Source: Leifsonia shinshuensis (lineage in GTDB: Bacteria; Actinomycetota; Actinomycetes; Actinomycetales; Microbacteriaceae). Taken from it: a stretch of DNA of 64,000 nt. The notes under the pieces are model-generated. The model had not been told where the DNA came from. It made no database searches and worked only from the letters and a program-made list of their open reading frames with translations. The stretch's first letter is position 1. Each line of letters opens with the position of its first letter. The stretch spans positions 1,364,001 through 1,428,000 of the forward strand of contig NZ_JACCFL010000001.1 of the NCBI RefSeq assembly GCF_013410375.1. Direction: 5' to 3'. Made by a program: the position numbers and the translations under genes. Positions 22,569-29,141 of this stretch are shown here, one piece after another.

Positions 22569-24257
22569 ATGGGTCACATCGACGTCTCGGGCGTCTCGTA
22601 CGCGCTCGCCGACGGGCGGCCGCTCCTGGACGATGTGTCGTTCCGGGTCGGCGACGGCAGCGTGTCGGCGCTGATCGGCGCCAACGGCGCGGGCAAGTCG
22701 ACGCTGCTGCGGATCATCCGCGGGGAGCTGCGGCCCGACAGCGGCGGCGTGGTGATCGACGGCGGCCTCGGCGTGATGGACCAGTTCGTCGGGCACGTCC
22801 GCGACGACCGGACCGTCCGCGACCTGCTCGTCCTCGTCGCTCCGCCCGCGGTCCGCCGGGCGGCGGAGGCGCTCGCCGCGGCCGAGGAGGCCATCCTCGA
22901 GCGTGACGAGACGGACACCCAGCTCCGCTACGCGACCGCCCTGACCGACTACGCCGACGCCGGCGGCTACGACCAGGAGGTCGTCTGGGACCACTGCACG
23001 GTCGCCGCCCTCGGCATCCCGTACGAGCGCGCCCAGTATCGCAGCGTCCGGTCGCTGTCCGGCGGCGAGCAGAAGCGGCTCGTCCTGGAGGCGCTGCTGC
23101 GCGGCCCCGAGCAGGTGCTGCTGCTGGACGAGCCGGACAACTACCTGGACGTCCCGGCCAAGCGCTGGCTGGAGGAGCAGCTGCGGTCGACGCCGAAGAC
23201 CGTGCTGCTGGTCTCCCATGACCGGGAGCTGCTGGCGCGGGCCGCCGACCGCATCGTCACGCTCGAGCTCGGCGCCGCCGGGAACACCACGTGGACGCAC
23301 GGCGGCGGCTTCGGCGGCTACCACGCGGCGCGCGAGGAGCGCATGGCGCGCCTGGAGGAGCTCCGCCGGCGCTGGGACGAGGAGCACGCCAAGCTGAAGG
23401 CGCTGGTGCTGCGCTTCAAGGAGAAGGCGAAGTACAACAGCGACCTCGCCTCCGCCTACCAGGCCGCGCAGACCCGGCTGGCCAAGTTCGAGCAGGCCGG
23501 GCCCCCGCAGGAGCGGCCGCGCGAGCAGAACGTGCGCATGCGCCTGACCGGCTCCCGCACCGGCCGCCGCGTGATCGAGTGCGACGGCCTGGAGCTGACC
23601 GGCCTGATGCGCCCGTTCGACCTGGAGGTCTGGTTCGGCGAACGCATCGCCGTGCTCGGCTCGAACGGCTCGGGCAAGTCGCACTTCCTCCGCCTGCTCG
23701 CCGCCGGCGGCACCGACCCGGACCCGTCCGCGGGGCACCTGGCCTCCGCCGAGGTCGCGGGCGCGCCGGTGCCGCACTCCGGCGTCGCCAAGCTCGGCGC
23801 GCGTGTCGCGCCGGGCCTGTTCGCGCAGGCCCACGAGCACCCCGAGCTGGTCGGACGGACGCTCCTCGACATCCTGCACCGCGGCGACGACCGCCGCACG
23901 GGCATGCCCCGGGAGGCGGCCAGCCGCGTCCTCGACCGCTACGGCCTCGCGGCGTCGGCGGAGCAGACGTTCGAGTCGCTGTCCGGAGGCCAGCAGGCCC
24001 GGCTCCAGATCCTCCTGCTGGAGCTGTCCGGCGCGACGCTGCTCCTGCTGGACGAGCCCACCGACAACCTCGACCTGGTCTCGGCGGAGGCGCTGGAGGA
24101 CGGGCTCGCGGGATACGAGGGGACCGTCGTGGCGGTGACGCACGACCGCTGGTTCGCGCGGGGGTTCGACCGGTACTTGGTGTTCGGGGCCGACGGGAAC
24201 GTGTACGAGGCGGACGAGCCGGTGTGGGACGAGAAGCGGGTGGCGCGGGTGCGGTGA
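22569..24257 (+). CDS. ABC-F family ATPase
   Basis: 562-residue soluble protein with two ABC cassettes and no membrane segments. Cassette 1 has GANGAGKSTLLR, signature LSGGEQKRLVLEA and LLLDEPDNYLD. The linker (about 255-300) is a charged coiled coil (MARLEELRRRWDEEHAKLKA). Cassette 2 has GSNGSGKSHFLRLL, LSGGQQARLQILL and LLLDEPTDNLD. ABC-F proteins act on ribosomes as translation factors or give antibiotic protection; which applies here cannot be told. A TAAGCT -10 (22530-22535) precedes a short leader with GGAAGAGGA. Confidence 0.93.
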   Translation: MGHIDVSGVSYALADGRPLLDDVSFRVGDGSVSALIGANGAGKSTLLRIIRGELRPDSGGVVIDGGLGVMDQFVGHVRDDRTVRDLLVLVAPPAVRRAAEALAAAEEAILERDETDTQLRYATALTDYADAGGYDQEVVWDHCTVAALGIPYERAQYRSVRSLSGGEQKRLVLEALLRGPEQVLLLDEPDNYLDVPAKRWLEEQLRSTPKTVLLVSHDRELLARAADRIVTLELGAAGNTTWTHGGGFGGYHAAREERMARLEELRRRWDEEHAKLKALVLRFKEKAKYNSDLASAYQAAQTRLAKFEQAGPPQERPREQNVRMRLTGSRTGRRVIECDGLELTGLMRPFDLEVWFGERIAVLGSNGSGKSHFLRLLAAGGTDPDPSAGHLASAEVAGAPVPHSGVAKLGARVAPGLFAQAHEHPELVGRTLLDILHRGDDRRTGMPREAASRVLDRYGLAASAEQTFESLSGGQQARLQILLLELSGATLLLLDEPTDNLDLVSAEALEDGLAGYEGTVVAVTHDRWFARGFDRYLVFGADGNVYEADEPVWDEKRVARVR

Positions 24258-24691
24258 TGGGGGAGCTGCGCGAGGTGTGGATGTGGAACGAGTGGGGGCA
24301 CTTCTGGCCGCTGTGGGGTGTCGAGGGGCCGTTGGACGGCGAGGAACTCGGGCTGAGTGCCGGGCTGGACCGCGACCTTCGCGACTGGCACGCGCGGTGG
24401 GAGTACCTCAACTCGCGACAGCCCTCGTGGCGGTGGGAGCATCCTGATGCGCAGGTGCAGTGGGAAGCGCAGGGCGACCGTCTGCTCAGTCGGCTCGTGA
24501 CGGAATTGGACGGGCGGGCGAGCGTGGTCAGGTCGTACCGGTTCCCCGAGGACGAGAAGAGGCTGCGTCTGCGAGGGCGCCGGGTGAAGGAACGGAGCGG
24601 AAGTCGCGCTGGCGGGACGGGCGTGGGAGGCGGTGAGGACCTCCCGCGCCCCCTCGTCAGCAGGACGATTTCGCAGTCGGAAACGCCGTGA
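24257..24691 (+). CDS. Unknown small Trp-rich protein coupled to the ABC-F gene
   Basis: 144 residues, not recognised. The N-terminal half is compact and aromatic-rich (MWNEWGHFWPLWGVEGPLDG, then LDRDLRDWHARWEYLNSRQP). The C-terminal 40 residues are basic and low in order. The ATG overlaps the ABC-F stop (TGATG), so the two are co-translated. Its last 35 bp overlap the end of a decayed gene on the opposite strand. Trp-rich single-domain proteins of this look occur beside various actinobacterial genes, but I cannot assign a role. Confidence 0.7.
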   Translation: MGELREVWMWNEWGHFWPLWGVEGPLDGEELGLSAGLDRDLRDWHARWEYLNSRQPSWRWEHPDAQVQWEAQGDRLLSRLVTELDGRASVVRSYRFPEDEKRLRLRGRRVKERSGSRAGGTGVGGGEDLPRPLVSRTISQSETP

Positions 24692-25282
24692 TGAGCCGAT
24701 CGCTATTGGTCGCCCACGATGCGAAGACTCTGATGGTCATGAGGACCACCTGAGGCCGGTCGACATCGACGAGGTAGAGATCGGTGATCCCGCACTTCGT
24801 GGAGTTGCCCGGGTTGACGCCGATGATGTCGGGCCAGGTGATCGCTGAGCCCACGGCCCCGGACATGAGGTCATCCCGGGAATGGACGCCCTGTACCTGG
24901 GCCTTCCAACCCTTCGATCGTGCTTGGTCGAGCTTGTCCTGCCACTCCTTCTGGTGCCTGTACTCGATATGGCGGTATCCCCAGCCTCCGTCGCCCGGCT
25001 ATCCGCACTGGTTCAGGTCGACAAAGCGCGATCGCGGGTCGCTGCTTGTGGCGGCGCGTTCCAGATTCAGCTCATTCTCACGGAAGTGGTTTTCCACATC
25101 GACGAGGTGGCCATCGACCTTGACGTACATGCGGACGCCGGACTCGACGGAGTGCTCGCATCGGTGGGCGTCGCGGTGAACCCCGTCAGGCACAACGTCG
25201 CGACCGCCGTCGCTGAGATGACCCTGAGCAGAGCTCTCGATGTCTCGGCGGGTGGCGCGGGTGCGGTGATGGACCATGCCAT
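24657..25282 (-). pseudogene. Decayed secreted-protein gene (frameshift plus nonsense codon)
   Basis: From the ATG at 25282 the first frame encodes a signal peptide (core RALLRVISATAVATLCLTGF, then TATPTDA). The sensible protein then continues in another frame from about 25145 (SGVRMYVKVDGHLVDVENHF), implying a frameshift. That frame meets a TAG at 25001-24999 after VDLNQCG. Beyond it the same frame runs open to 24657 through GWGYRHIEYRHQKEWQDKL, SGAVGSAITWPDIIGVNPG and CGITDLYLVDVDRPQVVLMT. The intact protein would be about 205 residues and exported; family not recognised. It is divergent from the peptide operon at 25405. Confidence 0.6.
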
Positions 25283-25343
25283 TCGGAGCACCGCATCCTC
25301 CTCAGGGGACGTCGTGGTCCCCCAAATGCGGACAGCGCTGTCT

Positions 25344-25380
25344 GAAATGTAAGCTGTAGCGTTGAGATGTAACACTGCAG
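25344..25380 (+). promoter_or_regulatory. Direct repeats in the promoter region of the secreted-peptide operon
   Basis: GAAATGTAAGCTG (from 25344) and GAGATGTAACACTG (from 25364) are direct repeats exactly 20 bp apart, two helical turns. TGTAAC (25369-25374) also pairs imperfectly with GTTGCA (25380-25385). The operon start codon is at 25405, so the repeats cover the likely promoter. Confidence 0.45.
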
Positions 25381-25404
25381 TTGCATCACCAGAAAGGACT
25401 GCTC

Positions 25405-25719
25405 ATGGTCACGAACATCCTGAATCGCACAACGAGGCACTCGCGTCGGGCCCGGCTGCTTCTGTCGTGCGCCGCCGGCGCTGCGGTCGCCGGCGGAGTG
25501 CTCGCTGCCGCGGCGCCGGCGGCGGCCATCATCACCCCTCACATCAGTGTCCACACCTACCAGGCGTACAACTACGCGGACTCCTACGGACAGGTCCAGC
25601 ACTGGGACAAGGTCGGCGGCAAGTACCTCTACGGCAACTGGGCACCGCGCGGCACCTGGTCGAATCAATCGAGCTGCTGGACCGGCGTCCAGGACTACTG
25701 GTACAACTTCAAGGCCTGA
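25405..25719 (+). CDS. Secreted aromatic-rich peptide, bacteriocin-like precursor
   Basis: 104 residues. A basic N-region (RRARLLL) and hydrophobic core end in APAAA at residue 41, a good Sec signal-peptidase site. The mature part is 63 residues with 8 Tyr, 5 Trp and 1 Phe (22% aromatic) and a single Cys, including YGQVQHWDKVGGKYLYGNW and the C-terminus VQDYWYNFKA. The size, Sec signal, aromatic C-terminus and following ABC export genes recall lactococcin 972-type bacteriocins, but I cannot show homology. The ATG has AAAGGA 7 nt upstream. First gene of a five-gene operon. Confidence 0.75.
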   Translation: MVTNILNRTTRHSRRARLLLSCAAGAAVAGGVLAAAAPAAAIITPHISVHTYQAYNYADSYGQVQHWDKVGGKYLYGNWAPRGTWSNQSSCWTGVQDYWYNFKA

Positions 25720-25731
25720 GGCGGCCGGCGA

Positions 25732-26337
25732 GTGAATCGAAACGGTTTCACGGGCGCGGCGGTGGCTCTTCTCGCCACCGCCGCGCTCGCGGGCTGCGCC
25801 GTGTCGGGAGTCGGGGCCGGCCAGGATGGATGGGCGCCGTCGCCGTCGTACAGCGGCCCCGTGCCGGAGTTCTCCGGCCCGTGGGCGTCCGAATTCGCCG
25901 AGGCGTACCGCTCGACCACGAGTGAGGTCGTTCATACGATCCTCGCGAAGGGGAGCATCACGGACCGGGACTACGCGAGCGTGAGCAGCGCCTACGTCCA
26001 ATGCATGTCGAACAAAGGGTTGAAGGCCGTCGTCACCGGTCAGTTCGGCGAGAGCACGGTCGAGGGAGACGGAGACGTCAACGCCGCGAACGAGGCGTGC
26101 AGCGCCGACTTCTCCGTCATCTCGGCGCTCCGCTACTCGACCTCCCGGAATCCACAGCATCTCGATGAGAACGAGATCGTCGTGGCCTGTCTGATCAAGG
26201 CGAAGGTCGCGCCGCCGAGCTACACGGCCAAGAATTACGCGGCCGACCTCGAGACCCAGGATTTCCCCTTCAGCACGAGCGTGGCCGGCTTCCTCAGCTG
26301 CACCAGCGACCCGCTCGGACTCTCCACGTCGCAGTGA
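25732..26337 (+). CDS. Putative lipoprotein of the secreted-peptide operon
   Basis: 201 residues. The N-terminus MNRNGFTGAAVALLATAALAGC carries a lipobox (LAGC, Cys22), so the protein should be anchored on the outer face of the membrane. The mature domain has three further Cys and no family I recognise (segments EVVHTILAKGSITDRDYASV, YVQCMSNKGLKAVV, NAANEACSADFSVI, VACLIKAKVAPPSY). Fixed position between the peptide and the adaptor suggests immunity or an accessory role in export. The GTG start is 12 nt after the peptide gene; its stop overlaps the next start. Confidence 0.75.
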   Translation: MNRNGFTGAAVALLATAALAGCAVSGVGAGQDGWAPSPSYSGPVPEFSGPWASEFAEAYRSTTSEVVHTILAKGSITDRDYASVSSAYVQCMSNKGLKAVVTGQFGESTVEGDGDVNAANEACSADFSVISALRYSTSRNPQHLDENEIVVACLIKAKVAPPSYTAKNYAADLETQDFPFSTSVAGFLSCTSDPLGLSTSQ

Positions 26338-27407
26338 GGGCGTCATCCACCTCGTTGGTGTCGCTCGCCGGGGTCGTCGTCCTGGCGACCGGTGTGGCGG
26401 TCGGCGCCCTCCTGGTGCCCTCGAGAGTCCCGGAAGGGATTGCGAAGACCGCTCCTCCCGCGTCGGCTCCAGCGACGCGAATGAACTCGATCGATGCGCA
26501 GGCGGCCACGCTCGTCATCACGTTGTCGGACGCGCAGAAGATCGTGAGCCCCGTGGCCGGCACAGTGACGAGCACGAACTGCTCCGCAGACGGTGTCATC
26601 GTGTCGGGGACATCTGCCGTTTCCGTCGACGACGCTCCTCTGGTCTTTCTCGCCACTCCGCGGCCGCTCTGGCGCGACCTCGAGGTCGGAGAGAGCGGAG
26701 CCGATGTGTCGGCCCTCCAGCAGGAGCTCGCTCGTCTCGGGCGCGATGTCGGGATCGACGGACGGTTCGGCAGGCGGACCCTCGCGGCTGTGATCGATGT
26801 GGCGAAGGACGCGGGGGTGACCGGTGCGACGGCATGGACATCGTTGCCGGCGTCGTCCTTCCTCTGGTTGCCCGCACCGACCGTGAGGATCGCGAGCTGC
26901 GACGCGCTCCTCGGGAGCAGGATCGATCCGGGTTCGCCCTTGATGAGCCTTCCGCAGGGACTCTCCGCGGCTCGGGTGAGCCCCGTTCCCGCGAACCTCT
27001 TCCCGGGCGATCGGGTGATCAACGTGGGGGACCGTACCGTTCCCGTCGACGGGGACGGGGTCGTCGCCTCCGCCGAAGGCCTCGAGTCCCTGGCGCAGTC
27101 CGACGCCTTCGCCGCGTTCCAGGCGAACGGCACCGGCGGCTCGCCCGGCGAGGGCCGGCCGGGCGCCTCGGCACCGTCCGGCATGCCGGTTCAGTACGAA
27201 TTGGCGAAGCCGATCTCGGTGGTGTCCATTCCCGCCGCGGCGCTGTACGACACGCGAGACGAGACAGGCTGCGTCCTCGGCGACGGCAAGCCGACCCCGG
27301 TCACGATCGTCGGCTCGCAGCTCGGACAGGCATTCGTCATACCGGCGAACGGCGCCGACTTCTCGAATGTGAGGCTCACGACGGGCGAAGCGCGATCGTG
27401 CGGATAG
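26334..27407 (+). CDS. Membrane-anchored adaptor with peptidoglycan-binding domain
   Basis: 357 residues. One N-terminal helix (LVSLAGVVVLATGVAVGALL) anchors a periplasm-side protein. A half-lipoyl-like segment IVSPVAGTVTSTNC (about 70-83) precedes a PG_binding_1 domain (about 113-160: LEVGESGADVSALQQELARL, IDGRFGRRTLAAVI). The rest resembles the beta-rich body of HlyD/MacA-like adaptors, with IPAAALYDTRDETGCVL near the end. Such PG-binding adaptors accompany ABC efflux genes in Gram-positive actinobacteria. The GTG overlaps the lipoprotein stop (GTGA). Confidence 0.78.
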   Translation: MRASSTSLVSLAGVVVLATGVAVGALLVPSRVPEGIAKTAPPASAPATRMNSIDAQAATLVITLSDAQKIVSPVAGTVTSTNCSADGVIVSGTSAVSVDDAPLVFLATPRPLWRDLEVGESGADVSALQQELARLGRDVGIDGRFGRRTLAAVIDVAKDAGVTGATAWTSLPASSFLWLPAPTVRIASCDALLGSRIDPGSPLMSLPQGLSAARVSPVPANLFPGDRVINVGDRTVPVDGDGVVASAEGLESLAQSDAFAAFQANGTGGSPGEGRPGASAPSGMPVQYELAKPISVVSIPAAALYDTRDETGCVLGDGKPTPVTIVGSQLGQAFVIPANGADFSNVRLTTGEARSCG

Positions 27408-28042
27408 CCGCACAGTCCGCGGGTGCGGAGAAAGGAGACCCGGAACTCGTCGCCGAAGCCCTTTCGCATCGCTTCGGCTCCGGCCCGTGGCTCTTCGAAG
27501 CACTCGATTTCGTGTTGCGAACGAATGAGGTCTACGCGCTGACGGGCCCTTCCGGATCGGGCAAGAGCACCCTTCTCGGCATCCTCGCCGGCTGGGGGCG
27601 GCCGGCTGCGGGTGCTGTCCGGAGGAGGAACATCGAGTCGGTCTCCTGGGTGTTCCAGAACCCGCACGGGGTCGCGGGCCGGACCGCCGTGGACCATGTG
27701 GCGCTGCCCCTTCTCGCCCGGGGCGCCTTGCATCCCGAAGCCCGTCGCCGCGCGAGGGCCGGCCTGGAGCGTGTCGGGTTGGCGCACGTCGCGGACGCGC
27801 CATTCCGTGACCTCTCCGGTGGCGAGGCGCAGCGGCTGATGCTCGCGCGAGGACTGGCATCGAAGCCGGACCTCCTCCTCGTGGACGAGCCGACGGCCCA
27901 GCTCGATGCGAGGACGTCCGTGTCGGTCAACGAGGCCATCGCGTCGGTCGCGACCGAAGGAACCATCGTGGTCGTGGCGACCCACGATGCGCAGACCCGG
28001 GACGCGTGCACCGCTGTCATCGACCTGGGCCGCACCCGATGA
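27398..28042 (+). CDS. ABC transporter ATP-binding protein (MacB/LolD type)
   Basis: 214-residue single cassette. Walker A is GPSGSGKSTLLGILAGW, the Q-loop is WVFQNPHGVAGRT, the signature LSGGEAQRLMLARGL, Walker B LLLVDEPTAQLD and the switch His VVATHD. Size and signature place it with the ATPases of MacB/FtsX-type exporters. The GTG at 27398 overlaps the adaptor gene by 10 bp and the stop overlaps the permease ATG, so all are co-translated. Confidence 0.88.
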   Translation: MRIAAQSAGAEKGDPELVAEALSHRFGSGPWLFEALDFVLRTNEVYALTGPSGSGKSTLLGILAGWGRPAAGAVRRRNIESVSWVFQNPHGVAGRTAVDHVALPLLARGALHPEARRRARAGLERVGLAHVADAPFRDLSGGEAQRLMLARGLASKPDLLLVDEPTAQLDARTSVSVNEAIASVATEGTIVVVATHDAQTRDACTAVIDLGRTR

Positions 28043-29127
28043 AGCTCAGGACGATAGTGCGGGAGGCGATCCTCGACATCGCGGCGGGAACGACGCGAGC
28101 GGCCCTGTTCGCGCTGGTGCTCGCCTTCGGGATCGCGGTGCCGGCAGGGGCGGACATCGCGACGATCGCCTCGCTCGAGCGTCAGGCGTCGCAGTACCGG
28201 CTCAGCGGCGGGACGACCCTCGTCTATCAAGCGAAGGCGGGGATCGATGGCGTCGCGTGCGACAGCCTTCGGCGCGCCCCGGGTGTCGTCGCGGCAGGCG
28301 CCATCCGCCAGCGGGGCAGCGCCGAGATCGCAGCGACTCTCCCCGCGCAAGAGATCCCGACCTTCGAGATCTCGATCGGCTTCGGCGGCTTCGCCGCGCT
28401 CGGCGGCCCGCACGCGGACGAGGGTGTGCTGGTCTCGCAGGACCTCGCCGAGACGCTCGGTGCGTCACCCGGACAGAAGCTCCCCCTGACCGACGGAACT
28501 CCGGTCGTGGGCGCGGTGTACTCGTATCCGGCGGACGGGCGGCTACCCGGCTACGGCTACGCGCTCCTCATCCCCGCGGACCCGAGGTCGGCGTTCGACG
28601 AGTGCTGGGTCGAAGCGTGGCCGGTCACGGGGACGCTGAACTCGCTCCTTCCGACGACCCTTCGCCCGGGAGCTGTGCCGTCGGGCAACGCCGGCGCACA
28701 GGGGCCGCGGCTGCAGCAGCTCAACTCGTCGCTCGGTGCGCACTTCGACGGCCAGAGCCTCTACGGTGGACGAGTGACGCGCTTCGCCCCCGAGCTGGTC
28801 CTCGTGGTCGGCCTCGGGCTCGGTTTCACGGCGGTGCTGCGCCGCAAGCTGGAACTGGCGTCCGCCCGGCACAGTGGCGTGTCGCCCGTCGCTCAGGCGC
28901 TCCAGATGTGCGTCGAGTCGCTCGTCTGGGCACTGGCCGGTGTCTGCCTCGCGGTGCCGGCTCTCGTGCTCCTTGCCTCCGTGATCGGTGACGGGTCTTC
29001 CGCCGCGCTTCCGCTCGCCGCCGTCCGGGTCGTCGCGGGGGCGGTTCCGGCGGTCGTGCTCGGAGCGCTCGGAGCGACTTTGTGCGTTCGTGAGCGTCAG
29101 CTCTTCCGCTATTTCAAGGCCAGATAG
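28039..29127 (+). CDS. FtsX/MacB-like ABC permease
   Basis: 362 residues with FtsX-like topology: one N-terminal helix (TRAALFALVLAFGIAVPAGA, about 17-36), an extracytoplasmic domain of about 210 residues, then three C-terminal helices (ELVLVVGLGLGFTAV, ESLVWALAGVCLAVPALVLL, VVAGAVPAVVLGALGATL). MacB-type exporters move peptides or lipoproteins from the outer face of the membrane, fitting a Sec-exported peptide as client. The ATG overlaps the ATPase stop (ATGA). Last gene of the operon. Confidence 0.82.
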   Translation: MKLRTIVREAILDIAAGTTRAALFALVLAFGIAVPAGADIATIASLERQASQYRLSGGTTLVYQAKAGIDGVACDSLRRAPGVVAAGAIRQRGSAEIAATLPAQEIPTFEISIGFGGFAALGGPHADEGVLVSQDLAETLGASPGQKLPLTDGTPVVGAVYSYPADGRLPGYGYALLIPADPRSAFDECWVEAWPVTGTLNSLLPTTLRPGAVPSGNAGAQGPRLQQLNSSLGAHFDGQSLYGGRVTRFAPELVLVVGLGLGFTAVLRRKLELASARHSGVSPVAQALQMCVESLVWALAGVCLAVPALVLLASVIGDGSSAALPLAAVRVVAGAVPAVVLGALGATLCVRERQLFRYFKAR

Positions 29128-29141
29128 AAAATGAGTACCCC

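Follow-up and report, generated by a model that had tools for sequence, protein, structure and literature searches.

Organization of the five-gene locus

The stretch of Leifsonia shinshuensis DNA analyzed here (contig NZ_JACCFL010000001.1, positions 1,364,001 to 1,428,000; 64,000 nucleotides, referred to as the window) contains an operon-like run of five genes on the forward strand, at 25405 to 29127, which encode a small secreted peptide, a lipoprotein, an adaptor, an ATP-binding cassette (ABC) ATPase, and a permease, with spacings of +12, −4, −10, and −4 bp. Their order, starts, stops, and overlaps are as described in an original prediction made from the sequence alone. The first gene (25405 to 25719; ATG start at 25405, stop ending at 25719), preceded by a ribosome-binding site, AGAAAGGA, at 25391 to 25398, codes for a peptide of 104 amino acids (aa). 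Its Sec-type signal sequence (residues 1 to 41; 25405 to 25527) has a hydrophobic core and an APAAA motif ahead of the mature part, the cleavage position after APAAA being judged by eye. The mature peptide (25528 to 25719, including the stop codon), a putative bacteriocin with a predicted all-beta domain that adjoins the rest of the cassette and is assigned to class B (see below), has 63 residues with a single cysteine, and a count of 14 Phe, Trp, and Tyr residues confirms the 22% aromatic content predicted earlier. An antisense open reading frame (ORF) called at 25186 to 26346 in the first gene-calling round disappeared after the caller was retrained and was taken as a shadow.

The lipoprotein gene (25732 to 26337, forward strand, GTG start) encodes a putative cognate immunity protein, and its lipobox cysteine (residue 22) and four further cysteines (91, 123, 153, and 190) are invariant among 42 aligned lipoproteins. 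It is followed by the one-helix adaptor gene (26334 to 27407, forward, GTG start), whose product has one N-terminal hydrophobic segment and a PG_binding_1 domain at residues 121 to 156 (approximately 26694 to 26801), scoring 26.2 bits against the Pfam cut-off of 23. PG_binding domains are the adaptor's sole Pfam matches, no membrane-fusion-protein family is among them, and the best Protein Data Bank (PDB) matches span only that part. The ATPase (27398 to 28042, forward, GTG start) has Walker A, LSGGE, and Walker B motifs and is an ordinary ABC ATPase; TIGR03608 (L_ocin_972_ABC) is its fifth best family (109.2 bits; E = 1.9e-31) and does not reach its curated cut-off of 254.85.

The permease (28039 to 29127, forward, ATG start, 362 aa) has hydropathy segments at residues 10 to 28, 249 to 267, 287 to 305, 306 to 324, and 325 to 343, giving the MacB/YknYZ-type topology of one N-terminal transmembrane (TM) segment, a large extracytoplasmic domain, and a bundle of three or four C-terminal TM segments. 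The earlier description of this protein as FtsX/MacB-like thus holds for its topology, and the FtsX match itself is sub-threshold (PF02687; 12.2 bits against a cut-off of 25.5; E = 0.19). A permease profile gave no sequence match to MacB or YknZ structures, and its weak match to benzoate-CoA ligase (E = 0.0034) was taken as chance. The permease matches no NCBIfam family, and TIGR01654 (bact_immun_7tm) is not among the families matched by 10 aligned permeases at E ≤ 1. Pfam and NCBIfam scans likewise give no above-threshold family for the peptide, the lipoprotein (for which no Pfam family fits), or the permease.

Sequence and predicted fold of the window peptide

The window peptide had been described as lacking a nameable match, and it indeed matches no Pfam or NCBIfam family, with no Pfam model, including the lactococcin 972 model PF09683, reporting it at E ≤ 1; it therefore does not fall within any known non-antimicrobial family of these collections, an outcome that would have told against a bacteriocin. 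A Rodlin match (E = 0.22) was dismissed as noise. A protein search with the window peptide alone returned two matches, 86% and 65% identical, and PDB sequence searches with the peptide and with the class B profile returned nothing relevant. A plain search of 299 genomes from the Microbacteriaceae, to which the host belongs, gave matches at E ≤ 0.001 in nine genomes; those in the window, G125, G105, and G150 all lie at cassettes of the kind described here, and the other five (G034, G217, G250, G259, and G288), inside ORFs of 422 to 538 aa and mainly involving the signal part, were taken as chance.

An AlphaFold model of the peptide is an all-beta domain of six strands, with block-mean predicted local distance difference test (pLDDT) values of 80 to 92 from residue 51 onward; residues 1 to 44 have pLDDT under 50. 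When the model was compared with 1000 chains, 9hkj, a lactococcin 972 family structure, ranked first and 2lgn, lactococcin 972 itself, ranked sixth, both with modest Z scores; these are the only two lactococcin 972 family entries that a profile of class A peptides finds in the PDB. The mature peptide would be a small beta-sandwich resembling lactococcin 972, the exact fold being a prediction from the model.

Three classes of cassette peptide were modeled. Class A peptides have the lactococcin 972 pattern, and PF09683 recognizes each of the 15 that were scanned (E ≤ 1; best, 1.2e-15); their GG-x-W...YG mature start is absent from the window peptide. Class B comprises the peptides that resemble that of the window. 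Class C consists mostly of cysteine-bearing peptides, and its profile resembles that of class B above 100 of 100 shuffles. None of nine class B or C members matches PF09683 at E ≤ 1, and lactococcin 972 was accordingly rejected, by sequence, as a family match for the window peptide. In profile-profile comparisons the similarity of class B to class A is weak and covers nine columns, and that of class C to class A is not above shuffles. A profile of the nine class B and C peptides finds 30 proteins at E ≤ 0.01 among 8000 candidates scored, none of which has a precomputed Pfam domain and two of which are named 'Lactococcin 972 family' in UniRef. The most likely placement of the window peptide is in a lactococcin 972-like branch beyond the recognition of PF09683.

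Recurrence of the cassette in Actinomycetota

The permease occurs in 33 of the 299 family genomes, and the adaptor in 78 at E ≤ 0.001. Apart from the window, we read 35 places at which a permease match has a strong adaptor match next to it; permease matches lacking such a neighbor (fragments) were left out. With a home-made gene caller, the complete order of peptide, lipoprotein(s), adaptor, ATPase, and permease is seen at 10 of the 35 (L070, L071, L072, L080, which has a partial permease, L081, L084, L085, L086, L091, and L097), and parts of it at some others, where the peptides were located afterward by profile searches. A scan of named genomes added 80 further loci, the best of 151 confirmed stretches, from Leifsonia, Agromyces, Microbacterium, Mycetocola, Bifidobacterium, Actinomyces, Schaalia, Cellulosimicrobium, Nocardiopsis, Actinoplanes, Propionibacteriaceae, and others. 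Near-identical loci (L102; L172, L179, L192, and L196; L204, L225, and L237) were counted once, so that 35 loci of the family and 73 others remain. Because the same gene set recurs in other genomes, it is more than a chance neighborhood, and a failure of the five genes to co-occur elsewhere, which would have undone the original proposal, is not what we see. The lipoprotein is found in at least 102 of 111 loci, a lower bound as L081, scored as lacking it, does carry one, and a lipoprotein ORF is present in all 13 class B loci. The lipoprotein and peptidoglycan-binding adaptor, which had been regarded as extras to a lactococcin 972-type locus, are instead regular parts of this cassette type, and it is the classical seven-TM immunity protein (TIGR01654) that is missing.

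Among the 35 distinct family cassettes (window included), 19 have class A peptides, seven class B, five class C (one weak, E = 0.0034), and four none; the corresponding numbers for the 73 other loci are 14, 6, 4, and 49, the unmatched loci having been examined with profiles and a crude signal filter only. Cassette peptides supplied part of the input to the profiles (hA, hB, hC, and A3), such that matches at cassettes are partly by construction and PF09683 is the independent check; none of 1484 opposite-strand control ORFs matches a peptide profile at E < 0.01. The 34 class A matches, of which two are duplicates, and the 13 of class B all end 2.2 to 3.1 kb before the permease start. Across the 299 family genomes, the class B profile finds at least four places in four genomes, all four adjoining a cassette; this is a lower bound, as the profile missed more remote class B members, those of L099, L100, and L103.

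We also note that eight cassettes (L195, L198, L199, L217, L221, L231, L236, and L244), from Nocardiopsis, Bifidobacteriaceae, Schaalia, Propionibacteriaceae, and Frigoribacterium, have other small secreted proteins of unknown type at the peptide position, and that the permease is broken or partial at L078, L080, L100, and L340. At L075 and L077, response regulator- and histidine kinase-like genes directly precede the adaptor, and the peptide and lipoprotein follow the permease, an alternative arrangement that is perhaps regulated.

Pairing of peptides with lipoproteins

In the genus of G105 (inferred to be Curtobacterium), 26 of 66 genomes match the search for the window-type peptide. In 25 newly read loci of this genus, all 33 window-type peptide genes (one of them broken) have the lipoprotein as the next cassette gene, and 24 of the loci have all four partner genes. 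Locus L334 (G337:C2:582162-594544) has four peptide-lipoprotein pairs in tandem followed by a single adaptor-ATPase-permease set, and L321, L335, L336, L337, and L339 have two pairs each. Distances between peptides correlate with those between their neighboring lipoproteins (Mantel r = 0.74 for 30 non-redundant pairs), and none of 5000 permutations is as high; L324 and L325, in which the lipoprotein is split or fused in the ORF calls, were left out, and one pair with a broken peptide (the second of L339) was included. When lipoproteins are shuffled only within arrays, no shuffle exceeds the observed r and 11 of 5000 reach it, there being 768 possible arrangements, with the unshuffled order itself expected about six times in 5000. 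We conclude from the distance correlation and the array shuffles that the pairs travel as units, and to judge from these sequence relationships this is the pattern to be expected of a toxin and an immunity protein dedicated to it. One point weighs against this reading: joint duplication alone could give the same pairing pattern.

Probable acquisition and genomic site

The suggestion that base and codon usage at the locus is less GC-biased than in flanking genes, and that the locus was acquired, is supported by both composition and gene order. The G+C content at third codon positions (GC3) is 0.82 to 0.87 in the five genes and 0.91 to 0.99 in 24 of 25 other genes picked from the window, the exception (0.84) being a small ORF at 24254 to 24691. 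That ORF lies nearly wholly within the same probable insertion (24258 to 29131), a stretch that carries the cassette and that, by blastn and gene order, is absent from the matching site of a relative, G313 (L248): the ABC-F and tautomerase genes flanking the cassette are about 4.9 kb apart in the window and about 18 bp apart in G313. More broadly, guaB and guaB3 flank a variable site in the genus, which we read in 20 of 27 relatives (one, L247, interrupted by a contig end) and which holds a cassette in 3 of 21 genomes (window, G125, and G314). These three cassettes have differing positions or orientations, and they carry differing peptides, one window-like, one a cysteine-richer class B peptide, and one of class A. 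The host itself has two further cassettes, L075 with a class C peptide (and the response regulator/kinase-like genes in front) and L086 with a class A peptide. Just upstream of the window cassette and within the insertion, 24657 to 25277 on the reverse strand is, over 355 bp, 69.6% identical in DNA sequence to a gene of G305 (L245), and is probably a decayed copy of that gene, which is called there as a 195-aa ORF.

Among the 53 rows of a permease tree, that of the window clusters with Leifsonia sp. TF02-11 and Candidatus Lumbricidophila (Shimodaira-Hasegawa-like approximate likelihood ratio test support, 99), both of which have class B peptides. The tree includes L175 (branch length 7.0), which is probably in a wrong reading frame, and the broken permease of L080, neither of them in the window's clade. 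The three peptide classes require 10 parsimony changes on this tree, of which well-supported branches force only one to two per class; some exchange or reinvention of peptide classes between cassettes is therefore likely, to an extent that is unsure.

Classical and cassette-type lactococcin 972 loci

PF09683 scores above its cut-off at 40 or more places in 32 of the 299 family genomes, a lower bound because the host's own class A peptide (L086) was missed. By coordinates, 19 of the 40 coincide with a window-type cassette. Of the 21 away from a cassette, 20 were examined, and 12 of these have the classical arrangement of a 640- to 740-aa multi-TM protein and an ATPase. Three others (L272, L274, and L277) have a lactococcin 972 peptide, a cassette-type lipoprotein, and a TM protein of 54 to 71 aa, with no transporter in the 6 kb read; L280 is a broken form, and L270, L275, L278, and L281 have arrangements that are not assignable. 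Among six long membrane proteins adjoining other PF09683 genes, four match TIGR01654 at E ≤ 0.01, none above the curated cut-off, and TIGR03608 is the best family for both ATPases tested from such loci, also below its cut-off. The original analogy to lactococcin 972 loci is thus strengthened, as the same partner set carries PF09683 peptides in relatives and the predicted fold leans in that direction.

Proposed function and alternative explanations

We think it probable that the locus encodes a bacteriocin together with immunity to it, bacteriocin activity being a prediction from the gene content. The first gene would provide a secreted antibacterial protein of 63 residues when mature, with a target that is probably the cell wall or its lipid II precursor, as for lactococcin 972. 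NisI, a lipoprotein, and NisFEG, an ABC pump, confer immunity to the cell-wall-active peptide nisin; similarly, the membrane-anchored lipoprotein of the second gene would bind and neutralize its matching peptide as NisI does nisin. The adaptor tethered to peptidoglycan, the ATPase, and the permease would form an immunity pump that expels the peptide or dislodges it from the producer's envelope, a role suggested by the gene arrangement and comparable to that of the MacB-like YknWXYZ system acting against the Bacillus toxin SDP. We are less sure of this division of labor between lipoprotein and pump. At about even chances we place a broader proposal, in which one chassis of four-cysteine lipoprotein, peptidoglycan-tethered adaptor, ATPase, and permease carries interchangeable secreted beta-fold bacteriocins (lactococcin 972 peptides, at least two groups unseen by Pfam and NCBIfam, and further unclassified secreted proteins), a peptide and its private lipoprotein multiply as units before a shared pump in the Curtobacterium-like genus, and the window peptide is among the founders of a novel bacteriocin family, one with a type of immunity protein peculiar to it.

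The locus had first been viewed as a unit for production, immunity, and export, of which the export role is probably mistaken where the ABC proteins are concerned, immunity being the better fit. A bacteriocin locus in which the permease and adaptor work in export or release of the peptide, with the lipoprotein as an export accessory, seems unlikely to us, despite the tight operon joining the peptide to all of the transporter genes and the presence of TIGR03608, whose title is 'putative bacteriocin export ABC transporter', as the fifth and below-cut-off family (E = 1.9e-31) among the ATPase matches. Because the peptide carries its own N-terminal signal sequence, export by the ABC proteins is less likely. 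The lipoprotein multiplies alongside the peptide and the transporter does not, and peptide and lipoprotein occur with no transporter in the 6 kb read at three places in the family; immunity therefore fits better than export with both the tandem pairs preceding one transporter and these three transporter-less places.

That the peptide is instead a secreted signal or envelope-stress ligand, sensed by the lipoprotein and ABC complex and with the class C regulator loci as the sensing form, is decidedly improbable. Genes that by sequence resemble response regulators and histidine kinases do directly precede the adaptor at L075 and L077, two loci that, like L092 and L093, have the peptide downstream of the permease, but no such pair is seen beside the window cassette and none was noticed at other family cassettes, for which no dedicated scan was made; tandem pairs and differing peptide types at one chromosomal site are, moreover, the behavior of toxins with immunity proteins. 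Marginally less probable still is a non-antimicrobial peptide, such as an adhesive of the cell surface or a structural wall protein recruited to the gene set. The bacteriocin role is a predicted one and no bacteriocin model in Pfam or NCBIfam matches the peptide; against this stand the chassis shared with PF09683 peptides, the predicted fold, and the paired lipoproteins. A bacteriocin with dedicated immunity remains our preferred explanation. If it is correct, a small family of cell-wall-active bacteriocins is widened to peptides unseen by Pfam and NCBIfam profiles, and the peptide-lipoprotein arrays are natural tests of pairing specificity. As each window-type peptide examined precedes its own lipoprotein, genomic data by themselves suffice to nominate a candidate immunity protein.

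Relationship to known systems

The literature searched, which leaves most subscription journals outside its coverage, contains no description that we could find of the lipoprotein/peptidoglycan-binding-adaptor cassette, of class B peptides, of the lipoprotein as a paired immunity protein, or of tandem arrays, and the window peptide is a candidate for a new peptide family on the lactococcin 972 chassis, one for which we found no earlier account. Curtobacterium sp. APC 4022 has lactococcin 972-like clusters according to a 2023 survey (PMC10456417), and one of them holds two ABC genes alongside two hypothetical ones; these clusters were predicted as lactococcin 972-like by BAGEL4/antiSMASH, whereas the window peptide is outside the Pfam model, and the accessible part of that account describes no lipoprotein, peptidoglycan-binding adaptor, or paired arrays. 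A 2026 paper reports a lactococcin 972-like cluster in Frigoribacterium (PMC12823222). Judging by these two reports, earlier work has probably already touched on the chassis in its class A form. TMcin (PMC12328743) was set aside, as it concerns another peptide class.

Lactococcin 972 is a lipid II binder that prevents the septum from forming (PMC4055356, PMC12345188). The window locus shares with lactococcin 972 (lcn972-orf2-orf3), streptococcin B, and mediterrocin (PF09683, 2lgn, 9hkj) a secreted peptide of about 60 to 90 residues (all-beta, in the window by prediction), whose gene stands first in an operon with ABC genes thought to confer immunity, although partner-gene function is described as experimentally unverified in any lactococcin 972 locus (PMC11796350). 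It differs in that its peptide lacks a PF09683 match and the GG-x-W...YG start, and in having a lipoprotein, a peptidoglycan-binding adaptor, and a 362-aa permease rather than the TIGR01654/DUF1430 seven-TM protein.

In Bacillus, the MacB-like YknWXYZ gives protection against the SDP toxin that the cell itself makes (PMC4887032). It likewise unites a membrane adaptor, an ATPase, and a permease that has an extracytoplasmic domain, and it works against a peptide that the producer secretes; the window adaptor differs in having PG_binding_1 and no membrane-fusion-protein family match, and a paired lipoprotein is present. The nisin immunity genes NisI/NisFEG are named in PMC4055356. No modification enzyme is seen beside the window peptide, unlike in the nisin system; nonetheless, when compared by role and not by sequence, the two are alike in that a lipoprotein and an ABC pump would share the work of immunity.

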